From NCBI GenBank assembly GCA_037447655.1, contig JBBHKE010002292.1, forward strand, positions 184,315 through 248,314: a DNA stretch of 64,000 nucleotides, given 5' to 3'. Below, piece after piece: positions 16,495 through 49,201 of the stretch. The DNA is from Zygnema cylindricum. Taxonomy: Eukaryota > Streptophyta > Zygnematophyceae > Zygnematales > Zygnemataceae. Each line of letters begins with the position of its first letter. The stretch's first letter is position 1. The notes under the pieces are model-generated. The model saw only the letters and a list, made by a program, of their open reading frames with translations, did not search any database and was not told the DNA's origin. Made by a program: the position numbers and the translations under genes.

Positions 16495-16742
16495 TGTTGG
16501 AGGAATGTCCACTTCGGACTCTACACGTGTGTATCGCAGTAAATGCTGGTTCCGCCGGTGCGCCGTTCATTGCCGTAAATTCGGTTTCAAGCGCTTGCAT
16601 GCACAATCGGCCGGGTAGCTCAGTTGGTAGAGCTAGTGTATGTCTAACACAAGGTCCCGGGTTCGATCCCCGGCTTGGCCATTTAACCAAAGTTTTCACT
16701 TTGGCGCCCATGCGATATGTAGAATATCGCCAATCCTCAACA
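16495..16742 (+). mobile_element. 248-bp LTR-like insertion containing a tRNA-like gene
   Basis: Starts TGTTGGAGGAATG and ends AATCCTCAACA, i.e. TG...CA with a short inverted repeat. It is bounded by a perfect 5-bp target duplication CTCCC (16490-16494 and 16743-16747). Duplication copy 2 has the uninterrupted site near 36811-36830. These are the marks of a solo LTR. A tRNA-like sequence occupies 16609-16681. No internal region, primer site or ORF remains. The sequence differs from the TRIM LTR at 48686 apart from the TGTTG start, so it is a separate family with the same architecture. Confidence 0.75.
16609..16681 (+). tRNA. tRNA-like sequence inside an LTR (possible anticodon GTC)
   Basis: Seventy-three bases fold as a cloverleaf. 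The 7-bp acceptor GGCCGGG/CTTGGCC has G-T wobbles, and the D arm is GCTC...GAGC. The anticodon stem has four pairs and an A-A mismatch at 27-43, with loop ATGTCTA. The T arm is CCGGG/CCCGG with a TTCGATC loop. The A box (TAGCTCAGTTGG) and B box (GGTTCGATCCC) match Pol III consensus. T33 is present, but T at position 37 is odd, so it may be a tRNA-derived promoter and not a working tRNA. Confidence 0.6.
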
Positions 16743-19500: not shown

Positions 19501-21472
19501 TCACTCTGCCTTTCCCGAGGGAGCAACCGAACTTCCTCCGAGCCGCAAAATCAGAGTCCAGCCAAACACCACTTTGGCAAGGATGTCCAATATGCCATAG
19601 CAGGCCACTTCAGCGTCCACACTAATTGTGTTTGAACCCTCTCCAAAGGCCCAGACCACAGGGTACAGCAGCCAGACGACGATCAGCAGCGACGACAGGC
19701 CGTCGTACAATCCACCTAAACCGTTGGATCAACCAAAACAAAATCAGTACTTTTAAACTCTTGAACTATGCAATTGTGTCCCATAATACAAGTGTATATT
19801 ATACAGATTTCTCCGAATACAATATGAGCATAGTATGTTGACACTACATATAGCGTTCCGTACTATTGCGAACTGTACACATATGTGTAAAAGGATGGCA
19901 GACGGATTTAAATCTTGGCGGGAAATTTTGATTGGATTGAAGCACATTAGCGAGAAACGGAAAAGGGGAGACAAAGCGATTGCATTCAAAAGAACCTAAA
20001 TACTTTCCCACACCCAACAGTGAAGGTGTGCTCTGGAAACAAACATGCATTCTATGTTGCCATTCATTCTCACCCATTGCGCTGCTCCTTGTATACACTT
20101 GGCGACGAATAGAAACGGCAAGGTCCCAGAAGATTAACACCATGAACAAACAACCAAATGAATACCATCCCCATCTGCTCGAGCCGACGGCAAGTGCTCC
20201 AAAAAGACCAGTTAAGATCATGAGAACATCGTAGAAGATGATACGAGCCGTGTGCTCGAATGTAGGAATGCCCAAGAGAACAAGATCTAAGAGGAGAAGT
20301 GGCGTAGTAAAGAGCCAATCCACATATCGGGCATAATGAAGTTCACGATATGTCGTTCCTTCCACGAGAACCAGTGTGGAACCGCCACCTGTTGCCTGCA
20401 CCAGTTTCAAAATTGTAACTTCAGCTTCAGTACCAGTTGCAAAATCTAGCCGCAAACCTCACGAAGAAAGAGATATTTTTCAAATCAACTTAAAGCGACA
20501 AGTAGTGGCAAGTAGACATTTATCACATTGACACTAACGCGGAAGGTAGGGAACTAATTTTGGTTAGCACCTATGTTTCCATGCCAAAAACAAACTGACT
20601 TATCAAACAACACTAATATATATCCTGTTTTAGCTGTAGAATTGTGGTCAATAAAAACAATCAAACATTTTTGTTTAAGGAGCTGGGACTGGAGTAAGAT
20701 GCAGCACTAATAGATAAAATTTGACAAAATGAAATGACGTTTAAAACTGCAAAGTAAAAACTATGAAGAATATAATCTAGCAATGTTGACTCAGTCGAAT
20801 CTGGCTCAAATTAAAAATATTAAACATCCTGGCATGTTAGCAAAAGTGAAATCCTTATAGTCATCAGCCTAAGATTTTCAAGCAGTGTGTTTCCACCACC
20901 TAGTAACATTTCAAATTTTGAAAACTTGACAGAAGAGATCAGCAACATGAAATAGTAACGAGGGAGGAACTAACCATGGTGAAGTAGGAGAGTGTAGCGA
21001 TAGCCATAATGGCATATGTCACATCTGATTGCCAGAAAACAGAAACAGAACAGGATTCTTATTAAAAAAACTAAACCGTTTCAAGCATTATTGATACGAA
21101 ATGCTGTAAGAACAATCAATTCTAAAGCTAAAAGGTGGCTAAACTTGGAGTAGGAGTGACTTACTCCGTTACAAAAAGCCACATCACAGAAAAGACTATT
21201 TTCTTACATGAAAGCATTTGACAGCATATTTCAATTCTTTTGGTTTAGTATTCTAAGTGCATTTTCATACCAATCTTTCCACTTTCCACTTTAGCTGTAT
21301 TTCTTCACAAGACCTTTGCCAAAAACTTACAGTAATGAAGCCGCTGATCAAGAGGACTTGAATTTGGACGACGATAGGAAAGAAAAGCCATTCCTAATGC
21401 AGAGGCAAGGAATATTCCAAATACAGTGTAGAGAATAGCATAGCCGCTTTTGTCCAAATATTCAAAAGCCAT
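19501..21472 (-). CDS. Microbial (type I) rhodopsin, bacteriorhodopsin-like proton pump, gene 1
   Basis: Seven-helix retinal protein predicted to pump protons outward in light. Exons on the minus strand are 21472-21331, 21024-20975, 20395-20074 and 19715-19501. Borders are GT/AG with matching phases and encode 242 residues. I chose the ATG opening MAFEYLDKSGYAI. Helix C reads RYVDWLFTTPLLLLDL: D90, T94 and D101 correspond to bacteriorhodopsin D85, T89 and D96, the DTD proton-pump signature. Helix G has DILAKVVFGW, with K219 as the retinal Schiff-base Lys and D215 as the D212 counterion. E197 and E207 keep the spacing of the E194/E204 proton-release pair. Length is typical, with only a short C-terminal tail. 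The upstream flank has three ~70-bp repeats. The paralogue is at 39478-41451. Related pumps are known from green algae and fungi. Confidence 0.93.
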
Positions 21473-27234: not shown

Positions 27235-28124
27235 TGTTGAAAAGAGGTAATTAATAGTTCACTTCCCTATTTTTGTTTTGTTTTAAAGAAAGAGAGTAAG
27301 GATCAAAGGCGCGCCATGGCTGCCGCCATATTTAGAAAGTGGCAGTTTTTGCAGTTAAGGGTATTTTGGCAAAAATGATGCATAGGTCTGATTTGAACTT
27401 GTGACCTCTAGGTTCTTTATAGACCAACTCCTTAACCATTAAGGAGATACGAAACGATACACGTGACGGGTTTCATAAATATATAAACAGTAACGAAACA
27501 GCTAATTAACAGCAGACTAACCAAAATGAGCAATTTCTGCATGTACGCGAATCTGAACCGTGTAAAATATGTTTTGATCGGACGGCCGGCATTAAAGCCG
27601 CCACGCGAAGTGAGCTTTTCGGCGGCATACGGATATAGCGTCACGCGGTGCCACGTGGCGCCACATTATTTGATACCGGAGAAGATGGGAGGAGGAACCA
27701 TGGCTTTCGATATGACATGTGTCACCTTGTAGACCTTGTCGTACAATTGTTGTACAATAAGTACATCGCCCATTGTACCTTCTTGTACTTTATAGTGTTC
27801 CTATTGGACTAGGGTTTAATAGTAGGTAGTCGTGAGTAGGCAGACCGAGACTTAGTAATATTTAGGTACCTCTCTCTCTAAGAGAGCTTGTAACTATAAA
27901 GGTCATCTTTGACCAGCCATAACTTACTGCTCGGGTGAGCAAATTCAGTGATTCTTTTTGCGTTTGACTCAGGGAAGTCTTGTCCTCACAAGGGTGAGAG
28001 TGGTAAGAATATTTGTGTGCCTGGGCGGCGCTTATTCAGCGGGAAAGTAGAAGGGGCAAATATTATCCTAGAGGCTTTACATAGGCTGCTCATTCTGTGA
28101 GTCAACGGAGACCACAGAATTTCA
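27235..28124 (+). repeat. 5' LTR of the copia element
   Basis: Starts TGTTGAAAAGAGGTAATTAA, ends CACAGAATTTCA, 890 bp. Contains a TATA-like ATAAATATATAAAC near 27474-27488 and, on the minus strand at about 27370-27450, a decayed tRNA-like stretch. Confidence 0.93.
27370..27450 (-). other. Decayed tRNA-like sequence antisense in the copia LTR
   Basis: Read on the minus strand, TTAATGGTTAAGGAG resembles a tRNA A box and D arm, and AAGTTCAAATCAG resembles a B box and T loop, at roughly tRNA spacing. Anticodon and T stems pair poorly. The same block recurs in the 3' LTR near 32691-32770. Confidence 0.4.
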
Positions 28125-28139
28125 GGTTATGGGCCCACC
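28125..28139 (+). promoter_or_regulatory. Primer binding site complementary to the initiator tRNA-Met anticodon arm
   Basis: GGTTATGGGCCCACC directly follows the 5' LTR. It is the complement of the anticodon stem-loop of plant-type initiator tRNA-Met (GGTGGGCCCATAACC), 15 of 15 by recall of that tRNA. Drosophila copia, yeast Ty5 and Volvox Osser are known to prime from such a half-tRNA. The gag ATG at 28129 lies inside this site. Confidence 0.8.
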
Positions 28140-31100
28140 CTCTAGGGTGCCCATATTTGATGGATCAGAATTTCTTTATTGGGAAATGATGATGGAGGGA
28201 GAACTATTTGAGAAGCATTTATGGGGCATAGTGTCTGGACAAATTCGATGCCCACCTCCACCTGGGTTTGGAGGGACACGTTTTTCTGGCACCTCCGCCT
28301 CTACAGTTGGTAGAACAGCTGCCACCATCACCGAGGATGAAGATGAGGAAGGAGAAGAGATTGTCATAGAAGGAGAAAAGGAAAGAGTTGCAACTCAAGT
28401 AACACCATTGCCGAAGGCGATACCGGCAGCAGCACCACCAGCAACAACGACAAGGGTTCAGACCGAAAGATTAGAGTATGAAAAGTGGAACTACAAAGAC
28501 AAGGTTGCAAAGCTCTTAATTCTTAAAAGTGTAGCAAAGGGCATTGCCATTCCCCTTATGCATGTCAAATCTTCATCTCAGATTTGGATATCACTAGTTA
28601 ACAAATATAAGAGTGGATCATTGCAGCAGCAACAGTTGGCAGAAAATAAGATTGCAGCTTATACTTATAAGGGAGGAAGTATGGATAATTATTGCAATGA
28701 TTTAGGAGCATTGTTTGGAGAGTTAGAGAGTGCAGGTAACTCATGGTCTGAGAGACAAAGAGTGAACACATTAATGATGAAACTACCTGAAGAGTATGAG
28801 AATATCATTAACCGATTGCAGGACATAGGAGATAGCAATTGGAATTGGGATGACACTGTGGGAATGATTTTAGTGAAAGAAAGCACCATAGAGCTTAGGA
28901 GAGGGAGTCCAAGTGTTCAAGCATTGTCTGCAGGATCTGATTGGCGGAAGCGTGATGAGGAGAGAGGGAAAGATCCTTATCGAAACTTTGGTGGAAGAGG
29001 ACAAGGAGGTGGCAGATTTGATAGACAGGGGAGAGGAACTTCTGGAGGAGGATTATGTCACTTCTGCAAGAAACCTGGACACTATATGGCAGATTGTGTT
29101 AGACTTGCAGATCTTCGACTGAAAGATGGTCAAGGAACTTCAAAGGACGGAGGAAAGAAAAAGGCTTTCCTGACTCAAGTTCTTGATGAGGAAGTGGAAG
29201 GAAAAACTGAACCTGAAGAGGAGCTTGAGGAGCTTCTCTTTAATCCGAAAAACACTGAAAAGCATGTTGACATTCCACGGAGACAAAAGTGTGCTTTCGG
29301 AGGTAAGAGGGATCCACCCGAGGATGGGTGGATCATAGACTCAGGGGCTTCAATGCATATGTGCAAAGATAAGCGGTGGTTCACTAAACTGAGAAAGATC
29401 CCAACAGTTGAGATAGAGTACAGAGATGGTAGAGTAGAAACCACAAGTCTTGTTGGAACTGTTGACTTGAAGGTTCTAGTTGATGGAAAGGCCTCAATTG
29501 TAACACTCTCAGACGTTCTTTACATTCCACAACTTAGCAAGAACCTAGTCTCAACAGCTGTCCTAGATGAAAAGGAGTTTGAAACAGGAACTAGGAAAGG
29601 AATCTTCACACCAAGCTTTGATAATGAGGTTTATTTCATAGCTGAGAAGGGCAGTCAAGGAATGTTCAGAATTGTACTTTGCAATGAAAAGAGTGTTCTC
29701 TACTCGTGTGCAAGTGAGATGATGCTTTGGCATAAAAGGTTGGGGCATGTGCATCTAGATAGATTAAAGAAAATGAAGAAAAATGGAATAGTGGAGGGTA
29801 TTACTTTTGAAGATGATGAGACCTTTCATGATTGTAGTGGATGTGCCCAAGGGAAGATTCATAGACTTCCATTTCCAAAGGCAACCACATTTAGGAGAGA
29901 GAAAGTATTAGATCTAGTTCACACTGATGTTTGGGGACCTGCTAGGTATGCCTCACATGGGGGGAAAAGATGGATGTTAACTATCACAGATGATTGGTCT
30001 AGATACACGAAGGTATACTTTCTCAGACATAAGTCAGAGGTATTAAGATGTTTCAAAGAGTATAAAGTATGGAGTGAAAAGCTACATGAAACCTCAATAA
30101 AAGAGATAAGAAGTGATAATGGGAAAGAATACACCTCAAGGGATTTTGAAGAATATCTTAAAGAAGAAGGAATTCATCATGAGAAAACTGTTCCCTATAA
30201 TCCGGAACAAAATGGAGTAGAAGAAAGAGTGAATAGAACTTTAGGAGATATGTCTAGAAGTATGTTAAGTGATAAGAGGATAGGGCTGCAGTTTTGGGCT
30301 GAGTCTATGAACTATGCTAATTTCATCAAAAATAGAGTCCTAACTTCAGCAAATAAAGAGGAAACTCCGTATGAGAGGTGGATAGGAAGAAAGCCTGATT
30401 TGTCTAGTTTGAGAGTGTTTGGAAGTCAAGTCTACAGTTTGGATTCCGATAAGACTAAATGGAAGTTAGAGGGAAGAGGGAAACCAGGATATCTTGTAGG
30501 ATATGATCAGAGCACAAAAGGATACCGAGTGTATGACTTGAAAAAGAGAGATATAATTTTGGTAAAACACATAGTGGTGATGAATGAAGAGAAGTCCATT
30601 GATCCATTCAAATATAATAAAGAAGTCAAAATCAGATTTGAAACGGATCAGTTTTCTGACTTTGACTTTGAAAATGAAGAGAAGGAAGAGGGAGAAAAAG
30701 AAAAATCTGCAGATCTACCAAACGAGAAGGAGGAAAGGACAACATCCGAGGCAACGCCACAATACGAAGTGGAAACCGATGAGGAACTTGATTAGACACC
30801 GGAATTGGAAGATAGGGAAGCTGAAAATTTCCCAAAACGAAACCCAAGAATGCCTTCCATACCGGCGTCCGATTTTGAAGGGGGAAGAAGAAGTAGTAAA
30901 CGACTTCAAGAAAGACAAGTAAATAACCAACTCACAAAGATGTCTCACCCAGATGAACCTCAAACATACTTAGAGGCCATAAACACTCCAGAAAGTAGGC
31001 GGTGGATCACAGCTATAAATGAAGAAATGGCCTCTATCATGGAAGCCAATACATGGGAGTTGGTAAATTGTCCACCGGACCGAAAACCGATCGGATGTAA

Positions 31101-32506
31101 GTGGGTTTTTAAACTTAAATTAAACCCGGATAATACCATTGAGAGGTACAAAGCTAGGTTAGTTGCAAAAGGTTATACACAGAAAGAGGGGATAGACTAC
31201 GAAGAAACCTTTGCACCTGTAGTCAGATTTCCTTCTGTTAGAATCCTTTTAAGTATAGACGCAGCGGAGGATATGGAAATCCACCAGATGGATATTAGAA
31301 CTGCCTTTTTGCACGGAGAGTTGGAAGAAGAAATTTACATGAGGCAACCGGAAGGATTCGTGGAAAGTGGGGAAGAAAACAAAGTTTGCAAACTGATAAA
31401 ATCACTCTATAGGCTTAAGCAAGCCCCGCGACAGTGGAACATAAAGCTCGACGAATTTCTGACCGGTTTGGGGTATATCAGAATTAGTTCAGATCACTCT
31501 ATATATTTATTTGAGGATGAGAATGGAGTGATATTTATTGCTATTTATGTGGATGATTTGTTGGTCTTAAGCAAGTCCTTAGATAAAATTAACAAACTAA
31601 AACGGGATCTTGGAAGCAGTTTTGATATGAAAGATCTTGGCGAAGCAAAGTACATTTTGGGAATTCAGATGGAGAGAGATAGAGGGAATAGAATTATAAG
31701 ACTCACTCAAAAAGAAGCAATCGGTAATATGCTAGAAAAATTTCAAATGGAGAAAGCAAACAGATGTACTACTCCCATGGATTTGAAGAAAGTGAGTGAG
31801 GGGAGTGAAGAGGGAGGAATATTCATCATTAATGATGAGATGGACGAGATAGAAAGAAAATTTATGGAAAATATCCCTTATCGGCAGATTGTAGGCAGTT
31901 TAATTTATTTTATGAACTGTACCCATCTGGATATAGCTGCAGCTGTAGGTGTCCTTAGTAGAAATCTTAAATGAACCAAGAAAGAGAGATTGGGAGGCTG
32001 CCAAAAGGGTGATGAGGTATCTGGTGGGGACAAGGGAATTATGGTTGCATTTGGGAGGGGAGCACACTGACATCACCACTTGGAGTGATGCCAGTTATGG
32101 AGATGTGCCTTTAAGGAGGTGTACGACTTGATATGTGTTGCAAATTGGATCCGGTGCATGTTGTTGGAGTAGCAAGCAACAAAAAGTAGTTGCTCAGTCC
32201 ACTATGGAGGCTGAATACATGGCTTCCTGTGCTGCCACCAAAGAATTAATGTGGGTTAAATCTTTTTTTGAAGAACTTGGGTTCATGAAGTCTGGAACTC
32301 AAAATGTTTTTTGTGATAATCAAGCTGCTATCTCGATTGCAGCTAATCCGAAACATCACTTCAAAGCTAAGCATATGGATATTAGACTAAGCTTTGTCAG
32401 AGAGAAGGTAGAAAATAAAATTATTAAACTGGTTCATAAAACTGATAGAGAAATGATTGCAGACATGATGACAAAAGCACTGCCTTCCCCTAAGTTGATT
32501 TATTGA
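28129..32506 (+). pseudogene. copia gag-pol polyprotein gene, interrupted
   Basis: One long frame 28129-30795 (888 codons) continues in frame after a TAG at 30793 to 31974. It then shifts +1 and continues past a TGA at 32129 to 32506. Domain order: gag with copia-type PIFDGSEFLYWEMMM near residue 8; zinc knuckle CHFCKKPGHYMADC near 311; protease WIIDSGASMHM near 400; pre-integrase LWHKRLGHVHLDRL near 533; integrase with DVWG near 600, RSDNG near 660 and the catalytic Glu before RVNRTL near 696; reverse transcriptase with QMDIRTAFLHG and YVDD (31546-31557); RNase H with STMEAEYMAS and HMDIRLSFVREKV. Order integrase then RT defines Ty1/copia. The two stops and the frameshift would prevent a full product unless the first TAG is read through. 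Confidence 0.93.
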
Positions 32507-32542
32507 TGAGAAAACTGTGGATTAAAATTGAAAAGTGACTAG

Positions 32543-32555
32543 GAATTAAGGGGAG
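32543..32555 (+). promoter_or_regulatory. Polypurine tract of the copia element
   Basis: GAATTAAGGGGAG lies immediately before the 3' LTR start, the expected site for plus-strand priming. Confidence 0.75.
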
Positions 32556-33445
32556 TGTTGAAAAGAGGTAATTAATAGTTCACTTCCCTATTTTAGTTTT
32601 GTTTTAAAGAAAGAGAGTGAGGATCAAAGGCGCGCCATGGCTGCCGCCATATTTAGAAAGTGGCAGTTTTTGCAGTTAAGGGTATTTTGGCTAAAATGAT
32701 ACATAAGTCTGATTTGAAATTGTGACCTCTAGGTTCTTTATAGACTAACTCCTTAACCATTATGGCGTTACAAAACGATACACGTGACGGGTTTCATAAA
32801 TATATAAACATTAACGAAACAGCTAATTAACAACAGACTAACCAAAATGAGCAATTTCTGCATGTACGCGAATCTGAACCGTGTAAAATATGTTTTGATC
32901 GGACGGCCGGCATTAAAGCCGCCACGCGAAGTGAGCTTTTCGGCGGCATACGGATATAGCGTCATGCGGTGCCATGTGGCGCCACATTATTTGATACCGG
33001 AGAAGATGGGAGGAGGAACCATGGCTTCCGATTTGACAGGTGTCACCTTGTAGACCTTGTCGTACAATGGTCGTACAATAAGTACATCGCCCATTGTACC
33101 TTCTTCTACTATATAGTGTTCCTATTGGTCTGGGGTTTAGTAGTAGGTAGTCGTGAGTAGGCAGACCGAGACTTAGTAATATTTAGGTACCTCTCTCTCT
33201 AAGAGAGCTTGTAACTATAAAGGTCATCTTTGACCAGCCATAACTTACTGCTCAGGTGAGCAAATTCAGTGATTCTTTTTGCGTTTGACTCAGGGGAGTC
33301 TTGTCCTCACAGGGGTGAGAGTGGTCAGAATATTTGTGTGCCTGGGCGGCGCTTATTCAGCGGGAAAGTAGAAGGGGCAAATATTATCCTACAGGCTTTA
33401 CATAGGCTGCTCATTCTGTGAGTCAATGGAGACCACAGAATTTCA
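32556..33445 (+). repeat. 3' LTR of the copia element
   Basis: 890 bp, same ends and length as the 5' LTR, followed by the target duplication GCATT at 33446. Confidence 0.93.
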
Positions 33446-35496
33446 GCATTGTTAATGGTCATGTGAGGCAACCATTTGCAAAATATGGGAATTCCACCAG
33501 GTTTTGGAGAAACCTGCTTTTCAAGAGGATGTGGAGGCAGAAGTAATAGATGAAGTTGAAGAGGCATCGTGTTGGACAAAAGAAAAGAGAAGGGGAAGGA
33601 AAACTCACACCTATAGCACCGATAGGTACTAGATCCCTACCAGTAGGGGTTTGGGGTTGTTCTAAAAACAGAGGCGAATGATACTGTAATATGGGATTTT
33701 AATAACACAATGACAACTCATTTTATTCTCAAGTGTCTTACTCAAGCAGTTGCTACCCCTCACCCAAATGTTCACAAAGGGTCTATTTGTGGGAGGCGTT
33801 TGTAAATGTTTACAGGAGTGGAACAATTTCAACAACAACACTTGGCTGATCAGAAGCTGCAAGCATATGTTTACAAAGGAGGAAAGATGCTTGAATTTTG
33901 CTATGATTTATCCGAATTATTTAGGGAGTTGGAGAGAGATGGAAAAGAGGAGACCGAGAAAGGAAAGGTGGATGATTTGCTAATAAAAATGCCAGATGAT
34001 TATGAGAACATTGTTAACAGGGATCAAGATTTGTCAAATCATCGATTGACCTAGAACTCCGTTGTAAGGATGATTTTAGTTCGGGAGAGTACGATAAAGA
34101 TTCAGAGAGGAGGAAAAAGAATTCAAGCATTGGTTGTTGGGGCTGACTGGACAAATAACGATTCCAAGAATCCTTATAGAAAATTTGGTGGAGGAGGAAA
34201 AGGAATTCGATCGGATGGATCTGGATCCAGGCCTCCAAACGGGCTTTGTCACTTTTGTAAGAAGTCAAAACATTACATGGCGGAGTGTATTAGACTGATA
34301 GAGCAAAGACTGAAAGACGGGCAGATCGGTGGATCAACTAGAAGAAAGAAGAAGACGCTTTTGGCAACACAAGTCACGGGATAGGATTCCAATGATGATA
34401 GATAACTTCTCCTAAACGAGGAGTTGGAGGTGAAAGCCGAGCCGGAGATTCCAAAGAAGCAAAACTGTGCTTTCAACAAGGTCAAAAAAGCTCTCGAAGA
34501 GTATATGTGCAGAGAGAAACGGATGTTTTCTAAAATAAGAAAGATCCCTACAGTAGATATAGAGCACGGGGATGGGAGAGTAGTAACCACTAGCTTAGTG
34601 GGATCTGTGGAACTGAGAGTTTTAGTTGAAGGTAAAACATCAATAGTCACTTTTTTGGATGTCCTTTTTATTCCACATTTGAATAAAAATCTTATCTCTA
34701 CGTCCGTTTTAGATGAAAAAGGTTTTGAGACTAGCACGAGGAAAAAAGTCTTTACAGCTAGCTATGAGAATAAAGAATACTTCACAGCTTAAAAGGGTAG
34801 CTAAAGAATGTCTAGGCTGAATTTAAGTAATGGAACGACGGGAGTTTGCTATGCTAATGTAAACGACTTGATGATTTGGCATAAACAATTGGGGAATGTG
34901 TATCTAGATAAACTAAAAGAAATGAAAAAGATGGGGGTAGTTGAGGGAATACAATTTGGGGATAATGATACCTTAGATGACTGTAGTGGATGTGCTTATG
35001 GTAAGGCCCACATATTACCTTTCCCAAAAACTGCAACCTATAAAGGAGAAAAAGTCCTAGATATGGTACATACCAGCGTATGGGAACCGACCAAAGTGCC
35101 ATTGTTGGAGGAAGAGATTTATGATTTCTATTACTGATGACTGGTCTAGGTTATCTAGAGTATATTTCTTGAAAAATAAATCTGAAGCACAAGTTTACTT
35201 TAAAGAGTATAAAGCATGGAGTGAGAAGCTCTATGAGACACCTATAAAGAGAGTGAGGAGTGATAATAGGGGGGAATACACTTCTAATCTGTTTGATGGT
35301 TTTATGAAAGAGGGAGGAGTTCAACACCAAAAGACTCTCCCAAATAATCCGGAACAAAACGGTGTAGCCGAGAGATTAAATCGGACGTTAAGTGATAGTG
35401 CCCGTAGCATGATACTAGATAAAAAGATAAGAAAATGCTTATGGGAAGAAGCAAAGAACTGAGCTAATTACCTTAAAGATAGAGTTTTTACCTCGG
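33446..35496 (+). pseudogene. Interior of the older copia element, decayed and truncated at the gap
   Basis: Continues the gag interrupted at 27234. The region is broken by many stops and shifts but keeps recognisable parts in order. A gag piece includes YKGGKMLEFCYDLSELFREL (about 33866). The zinc knuckle CHFCKKSKHYMAEC lies near 34247, and protease-flank sequence spans 34540-34790. Pre-integrase MIWHKQLGNVYLDKL lies near 34872. Integrase pieces are MISITDDWSRLSRVYF near 35121, VRSDNRGEYTS near 35253 and NGVAERLNRTL near 35359. It runs into the 10-N gap at 35497, so its RT, RNase H and 3' LTR are not visible. Confidence 0.88.
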
Positions 35497-47770: not shown

Positions 47771-48780
47771 TTTACTGCAGGAAATGTAGTGCGTGACGCC
47801 ACCACCAATTCAGGTACGACTTCGTACATGAGACAAACATCCATATTTTAGAAGATCGAATCGATAAACCTATGCCGATTTCAGGCCTATGGTCATTTTA
47901 GGGCAACGTGTTCCTGGGTACTATTTGTGTCGTAAAAGCTTCTCTATACCCTGAAGCCATGTATCTATCATTTAATAAACTAACACAGTTACTCTTTATA
48001 CAAACCAAGAGGCAAACAATCTTCATACAAAAATTATATTCAGTTAATGAGTGGTCGGAATTGAGGAGAATGTGAGTAGTCGTGTTGTTTTTTCTTACAA
48101 ACTAGACTTGTGAATGTGAGTATCCTTCGTTTTTTTCCAAGACGAAATAACAAAATCATGTAATAACACTGCAAGAAAATATACCATGGTTAATAGGCTA
48201 GCAAGTAGGGATGGATGCAAAAGAAAATGAAACACTATATACCGATGCGTCACAGGTACACATGTGAATCGAAACAAACAAACAAACGAGGCGGGAAAGG
48301 CCACTTTTTTGTGCGAATGCGGAGGGGTGGAGTACTTCCTTTGCCAAAATATGGTTGGTGAGAAAGGAACGCGCAGAGTAGAACGAGTAAAGATGAATGG
48401 CCAATCATGGCACAGCATCACAATATTGCATGCAATAAACACTATTGTTCTGTATCGAGTGAAAATTTATTGCTATAAATTTGATGTTTGATATATCGAA
48501 TTATCGAACCTTTAGAGGGACATTGAAATGGATTCCCATTTGTTCGCGTCATCGGAGTGTCGCCCATGGGGTGAAACTTTCGCTATTGCGCTGCCGCATG
48601 TGACGATGGTCACATAGAGGCTGACGGCCGGTTCTGACGCGCGACATGTACGGAATGCTGGAGCGCCGCCTTTAGGCAGGACTTATGTTGACGTACGCAA
48701 AACGTGCTGATCGATACCCGAAATTGTGGTAAATTCCACACTAAAACCTATATAAAATTGGACCCACCAGCATAACATCT

Positions 48781-48853
48781 GAGCTGGTGGTACAGTGGTT
48801 AGTACATTCACAGCTAAAGTGAAAGGTCTCAGATTCAAATCTTGGCCGGCTCA
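48781..48853 (+). tRNA. tRNA-like sequence in TRIM 5' LTR
   Basis: Acceptor GAGCTGG/CCGGCTC, D arm GTAC/GTAC, anticodon stem TTCAC/GTGAA with loop AGCTAAA. The T stem is weakened in this copy (TCAGA/CTTGG). Position 33 is G and not the universal T, so decoding function is unlikely; it reads as a Pol III promoter module. Confidence 0.7.
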
Positions 48854-48908
48854 TCAATCCCTTTATTGGGATGGTCCATTCTATCCCCTGATTCTAGGAA
48901 TCTTAATA

Positions 48909-48924
48909 TGGTATCAAAGCCAGG
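48909..48924 (+). promoter_or_regulatory. TRIM primer binding site (initiator tRNA-Met 3' end)
   Basis: TGGTATCAAAGCCAGG directly follows the 5' LTR; the plant initiator tRNA-Met complement is TGGTATCAGAGCCAGG, one mismatch. Confidence 0.85.
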
Positions 48925-49068
48925 GGACTAGGTTTACATGGACAATTATGACCGGCTACCTCTCAAGGGGGGGTGTTGACGTACGTAAAACGTGCTGATC
49001 GATACCCGAAATTGTGGTAAAATCCACACTAAAAGCTTTATAAAATTGGACCCACCAGCATAACATCT

Positions 49069-49141
49069 GAGCTGGTGGTACAGTGGTTAGTACATTCACA
49101 GCTAAAGTGAAAGGTCCCAGGTTCAAATCCTGGCCGGCTCA
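49069..49141 (+). tRNA. tRNA-like sequence in TRIM 3' LTR
   Basis: Same module as at 48781 but with a perfect T arm (CCAGG TTCAAAT CCTGG) and consensus B box GGTTCAAATCC. The A-box region is TGGTACAGTGG. All four stems pair; variable loop of five; discriminator A. Loop AGCTAAA would give anticodon CTA but lacks T33. Confidence 0.75.
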
Positions 49142-49201
49142 TCAATCTCTTTATTGGGATCGTCCATTTTATCCCCCATTTCTAGGAATCTTAACAACTT
49201 A

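Follow-up and report, generated by a model that had tools for sequence, protein, structure and literature searches.

The 64-kb window, by which is meant the whole stretch of Zygnema cylindricum DNA that was analysed, carries at positions 48681-49201 a short LTR retroelement together with its target site duplication (TSD). The element is 511 bp long with an interior of 65 bp, and is as such a short non-coding LTR element of less than 1000 bp, as TRIMs are. Read on the forward strand, it is composed of a 223-bp 5' LTR (48686..48908), delimited by sequence and family alignment, of a non-coding interior (48909..48973), recognised by sequence and interior search, and of a 223-bp 3' LTR (48974..49196), identified by sequence comparison. 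The termini of the 3' LTR are TG...CA and the 5' LTR ends with TA instead of CA (TG...TA). The pentanucleotide ACTTA is read in the sequence on either side (48681..48685 and 49197..49201, no strand being assigned). The interior opens on a primer binding site (PBS), TGGTATCAAAGCCAGG (48909..48924, +), complementary at 15 of its 16 bases to the 3' end of a land-plant initiator tRNA-Met (iMet). It closes on a polypurine tract (PPT), AAGGGGGGG (48965..48973, +), seen in the sequence, which is G-rich and adjoins the 3' LTR, the commonest interior ends across the family being likewise G-rich.

Within the 5' LTR, a TATA box, TATATAAAA (48749..48757, +), whose motif recurs family-wide, has its first T 32 nt 5' of a tRNA-like module (48781..48853, +) identified by ARAGORN and family alignments, with an A box at 48788-48798 and an altered B-box region at 48832-48842. 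The module is followed in U5 by a hairpin, ATCCC-TTTATT-GGGAT (48857..48872, +), a pattern present in 72 of 95 LTRs. In the 3' LTR, the sequence TATAAAA (49039..49045, +) precedes the second copy of the module (49069..49141, +), supported by Rfam and by its predicted fold, with an A box at 49076-49086 and a B box at 49120-49130. Further downstream stands TTTT (49167..49170, +); at this place TTCT is read in the 5' LTR and in the form most frequent across the family. The two LTRs are identical at 209 of 223 positions and, judged by this divergence of 6.3%, the element is middle-aged. The position, the 223-bp LTRs in direct repeat, the 65-bp interior, the iMet PBS, the PPT and the ACTTA duplication given in an earlier note on this DNA all proved exact to the base on re-examination.

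Elsewhere in the window, a Copia-type element (27235-33446, +) has 891-bp LTRs that are 96.5% identical. Its PBS, GGTTATGGGCCCACC, corresponds to the anticodon half of a plant iMet at 15 of 15 bases, and the element seems to use a truncated primer. The agreement of both PBSs with a plant iMet suits a plant or green algal host, without being proof of one. As a partner of the TRIM it is not obvious, its PBS corresponding to the anticodon half of iMet and not to the 3' end. The segment 25834-27360 holds a tandem repeat with a spacing of about 765 bp, the repeated sequence being 597 bp long or more. Its copies are 98% identical to each other and resemble the Copia LTR at about 72%; this repeat is the remains of a second Copia-related unit. 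A tRNA-Asp (GTC) call of 54.3 bits in pyrimidine-rich surroundings (16609-16681), seemingly unlike plant tRNA-Asp, may be another tRNA-derived repeat. Finally, the window comprises a beta-ketoacyl synthase exon (PF00109; 1642-2169, +) and an open frame resembling an exon of a microbial (bacteriorhodopsin-type) rhodopsin (19844-20455, -), for which PF01036 is found in 20 of 20 homologues among the matches listed.

The tRNA-like module

The earlier note had described a 73-nt tRNA-like cloverleaf block in each LTR. Both blocks are indeed called by ARAGORN as tRNAs with the anticodon CTA, under the label 'Pyl', and the 3' copy is also recovered by the Rfam tRNA model (RF00005) with 56.6 bits and an E-value of 1.5e-9. 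The 5' copy, whose T-stem bases are altered, is missing from the Rfam list at the gathering threshold. As to folding, the minimum free energy structure predicted for the 3' module (-25.4 kcal/mol) coincides exactly with the four-stemmed cloverleaf, and that predicted for the 5' module departs from it. The anticodon loop of the window module reads AGCTAAA, with a G at position 33, which confirms the absence of T33 that had also been pointed out.

Among the 95 LTRs delimited in the genome, 36 belong to a young type, and the other 59, referred to as old-type/other, are all those outside the young type, rearranged ones included. The main D stem of the young type is GCAC/GTGC and its loop is AGCTTAA (anticodon CTT) in 32 of the 36 LTRs; the old-type/other LTRs mostly have the D stem GTAC/GTAC, with the loop AGCTAAA (CTA) in 39/59 and AGCTACA in 8/59. 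The majority sequences of the two sets differ at 6 of the 73 module positions, at 4 of 95 in U3 and at none of 55 in U5. Between the types, the change from T11-A24 to C11-G24 preserves the pair, and that from A30 to G30 preserves a wobble pair. The young-subfamily module forms a perfect cloverleaf (-26.7 kcal/mol, 56.3 bits), and its A and B boxes are intact, with a mean majority of 0.99 and 0.96, respectively. Over 48 LTRs, the commonest A box is TGGTACAGTGG (28/48) and the commonest B box GGTTCAAATCC (26/48).

The pairing and covariation analysis covered the distinct modules of 71-74 nt, i.e. 70 for the 95 LTRs, and 94.7% of their cells are paired. Pairs altered on both sides were observed three times, versus 2.8 in shuffles, so that the covariation amounts to one inherited event, without sign of repeated selection. 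Besides, within either type, conservation of the module is no higher than that of U5, but higher than that of U3 positions 1-60.

The perfect cloverleaf with its full acceptor stem, together with the ARAGORN tRNA calls with anticodon CTA or CTT, would suit a captured tRNA gene giving a mature, working suppressor-like tRNA, the element being mainly its vehicle. We consider this very improbable. T33 is absent from the main loop forms of both subfamilies and the anticodon is shifted from CTA to CTT between them, features better suited to a promoter than to a decoder. Moreover, many copies are decayed, with 21 of 61 modules, reference included, folding within 6 bp of the cloverleaf, a count in which the 61 include unscored modules of a length other than 73 nt, such as intact 72-nt young ones. 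Absence of T33, anticodon change and decay thus lead to the rejection of a decoding tRNA, in agreement with the earlier suggestion that the module is probably no decoder.

Tandem duplications in or of the tRNA module were also seen within single LTRs (L059:1437-1571, L071, L074, L107 and L112), and internal duplication of the module seems to happen easily.

A dispersed family

The genome searched comprises 352.8 Mb in 2,689 contigs. At least 73 matches were obtained with the window LTR as query (40 of 807 first-look candidates scored), at least 75 with a young LTR (40 of 908) and at least 40 with the interior (40 of 120), the first-look candidates being unconfirmed copies, so that 807, 908 and 120 are no copy numbers. 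LTR-like candidates are several-fold more numerous than interior-like ones, as expected with many solo LTRs. From the first 100 loci, 66 elements with 95 LTRs were delimited, namely 24 two-LTR elements, one three-LTR and one four-LTR array, and 40 single or truncated units. These counts are partly non-independent, some loci being duplicate or allelic versions of one another (shared flanks in L043/L065 and in L024/L023). The LTRs measure 221-223 bp in 81 of 95 cases (range 208-254) and the interiors 65-68 bp in 28 of 29. Perfect 5-bp TSDs surround 17 of the 26 multi-LTR elements; when the flanks were shuffled 2000 times, the number of such elements averaged 0.89 and never exceeded 4. They also surround 12 of the 40 single-LTR units, one of them within a G run. 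A chance repeat and a local duplication are ruled out by these TSDs and by the dispersal of the copies. In the 24 two-LTR elements, the two LTRs diverge by between 0% and 13.1%, the young subfamily reaching 0%, which reveals recent activity of the family.

Two loci deserve a separate mention. At L096:101-1182, four LTRs and three interiors are enclosed by a single TSD (TGATT) round the whole array, the LTRs being 2-7 bases apart. At L062:507-634, a group II intron match lies near a young element, below threshold (34.5 bits, gathering 40).

Among the LTRs adjoining 61 distinct interiors, 48/61 upstream and 51/61 downstream ones contain 60 nt or more of the module. Loci L031-L060 had been chosen via the module itself, which biases its conservation there upward; only the interior search, of whose 40 places 37 are included, made no use of the module. 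Where the module is missing, several LTRs are incomplete, being truncated or running past the end of the locus sequence, and others are internally rearranged (e.g. L036, L107 and L112). For the Helenus elements considered below, it has been proposed that they arose when a SINE inserted into an LTR (PMC10886601), and one may accordingly think of a SINE or tRNA fragment that landed by chance in the LTRs of a single element. This explanation is the least credible of those weighed here: the module is present in most LTRs of the family, and all 30 loci extracted (from 42 module matches) have LTR sequence on both sides, the module search having scored 40 of 989 candidates, so that copies outside LTRs may also exist. 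A chance insertion in one element is refuted by the recurrence of the same anatomy and module in other copies genome-wide, and the multicopy family that the earlier note had supposed, with the module as a rule, is borne out.

Promoter signals and transcription

All 36 young LTRs and 54 of the 59 old-type/other ones carry the TATA motif (TATA, then A or T, then A) 32 nt above the module. A TATA box about 32 nt above the start is usual for Pol II, and plant tRNA genes also carry TATA-like elements at such an upstream distance. A run of four T (T4) is present within the LTR, downstream of the module start, in 10/59 old-type/other and 1/36 young LTRs (11/95 overall), in U3 in 0/59 and 1/36, respectively, and in none of the 29 interiors counted. 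In one young copy scanned whole, the 415-nt stretch from the module to the LTR end, which is the presumptive transcript, contains no T4. Of 17 elements with intact TSDs, 15 have their first genomic T4 at a distance of 2 to 368 bp past the element, and no downstream T4 was found for the two others, the flank being only 100 bp for some elements. With no T4 in most LTRs or in any of the 29 interiors, a Pol III transcript would have no clear end, which leaves room for transcription by Pol II or for read-through. Avoidance of T4 as evidence of Pol III was itself discarded as non-significant, 29-51% of shuffles being also without T4. As far as sequence signals go, a Pol III start at the module is plausible, and no Pol III end is apparent.

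The main rival is Pol II transcription from the TATA box of the LTR: the element would be the same TRIM, and the tRNA fold at the 5' end of R would be a passenger or a structure with another role. The near-constant TATA motif at the usual Pol II spacing and the T4-free presumptive transcript of the young copy both speak for it. The intact A and B boxes of the young subfamily argue the other way, and the TATA-like elements of plant tRNA genes, located at the same distance, deprive the spacing of part of its weight. Cassandra-like TRIMs with TATA boxes and without 5S, which are on record (PMC10853983), likewise favour Pol II, and the recurrence of the tRNA-bearing design in fungi, animals and Selaginella (PMC10886601) is against it. 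All in all, Pol II transcription appears possible, if rather unlikely.

The reading that we prefer, with a probability of roughly 0.6, is that of a non-autonomous Helenus-type TRIM whose RNA would be produced by Pol III from the module, the latter acting as a promoter and not as a decoding tRNA. Its support lies in the anatomy: the succession of LTR, PBS, PPT and LTR, the 5-bp TSDs, the solo LTRs, the arrays, and the sense-strand A and B boxes in a full cloverleaf below a TATA box. According to this model, Pol III would be recruited via the A and B boxes, with the TATA box serving as an upstream element, and the RNA would start at or just before the cloverleaf, which would place the U3/R boundary there. 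The RNA would then pass through U5, the interior and U3 into the 3' LTR. Reverse transcription would be primed by initiator tRNA-Met and the integration proteins would be provided in trans, probably by a Copia-type element, a partner that the 5-bp TSD and the PBS for the 3' end of iMet make probable. A more elaborate version can be put forward, to which we attach little credence: the TATA box and the A and B boxes would set one and the same start, and the genomic RNA would begin with, and repeat near its 3' end, a cloverleaf kept for structure as well as for promoter. With no Pol III terminator, RNAs spanning several LTRs would insert as arrays, and the fold would act in packaging, reverse transcription or end processing.

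A deletion derivative

The earlier note had named absence of the module from other copies as the observation that would speak against its reading. Such absence does not hold for most copies, but it does for one whole element, L101 (C931; L101:193-542). Both of its LTRs are 142 bp long, differ from each other at two positions and lack 81 bp, from LTR position ~62-65 to 142-145, the ends being ambiguous by three bases. The TATA box, the A box and the anticodon arm are lost and the T arm is retained. GTATT is found on both flanks as the TSD of this transposed copy, the 5' flank having an additional T. Over the 115 loci examined, the exact deletion junction occurs only in L101, where it occurs twice. 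A parent element may have suffered the deletion in its 3' LTR while its 5' LTR was intact, and the deletion would then have been copied to both LTRs by one round of reverse transcription. Since a single round could spread the deletion in this way, L101 is no proof of a dispensable promoter.

Relation to known elements

tRNA-derived SINEs have a tRNA head with A and B boxes, as has the window module; they possess no LTRs, PBS or PPT, are mobilised by LINEs, and their head usually falls short of a full cloverleaf. On this definition, SINE identity is rejected by the presence of LTRs, PBS, PPT and a 5-bp TSD. Identity with Cassandra is rejected as well, given that the Rfam search of the window, at gathering scores, recovers tRNA but no 5S.

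The group to which the element can be related is Helenus, described by Kojima in 2024 (PMC10886601) as TRIMs with a tRNA-derived sequence in their LTRs, from fungi, animals and a single plant, Selaginella moellendorffii. The same paper proposes the name TRIMp3 for those TRIMs that carry a Pol III promoter, leaves open whether Helenus is transcribed by Pol III, and also mentions 'suppressor' calls with a CTA anticodon among fungal Helenus (PMC10886601). The claim that no family of this kind had been described is thereby overturned, Helenus being defined by exactly such tRNA-bearing LTRs. In a literature search on the group names, the TRIM sense was met in PMC10886601 only, the other matches being unrelated by title.

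The window element is a new family within the known Helenus design, as matched on anatomy and not on published consensus sequences: it is a TRIM of less than 1000 bp with a tRNA-like sequence in both LTRs, a PBS, a PPT, a 5-bp TSD, and A and B boxes. With Helenus it further shares the location of PBS and PPT in a short interior, the 5-bp length of the TSD as in fungi and Selaginella, a mostly non-decoding tRNA, and tandem arrays as in the zebrafish family, and its iMet 3'-end PBS is that of some fungal Helenus families. It differs in size from the only plant family named, Helenus-1_SMo, whose LTR and interior measure 120 bp and 85 bp, compared with mostly 221-223 bp and 65-68 bp in the Zygnema family. 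The TATA box is conserved in the Zygnema family, whereas the word TATA is absent from the main text of PMC10886601.

To Helenus, for which one plant species was known in 2024, the present data add a family in which some copies still have identical LTR pairs. They raise a question common to all such elements, namely whether the genomic RNA is derived from a terminator-less Pol III-type promoter or from Pol II, and the coexistence in one genome of young copies, decayed copies and a derivative deleted for the TATA and A boxes makes this promoter question testable. In addition, tRNA gene predictions in such genomes may be inflated by transposons, as PMC10886601 shows for rust fungi.

The likeness in design to Cassandra, proposed from the outset, holds, both being TRIMs with a small-RNA gene module in the two LTRs. 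According to PMC7215508 and PMC10853983, Cassandra likewise uses a small-RNA gene as internal promoter of the LTR, has a Met PBS, TGGTATCAGAGC, and forms short arrays of about three LTRs. These sources attribute to it a 5S gene in place of a tRNA and describe Pol III terminators, in contrast to the Zygnema family, which is mostly without T4. Finally, Ajax, a nemertean 5S TRIM (PMC10886601), has in common with the Zygnema family a small-RNA-derived promoter in the LTR of a TRIM and a 5-bp TSD, but differs by its 5S fragment, its animal host and its tRNA-Leu primer (PMC10886601).
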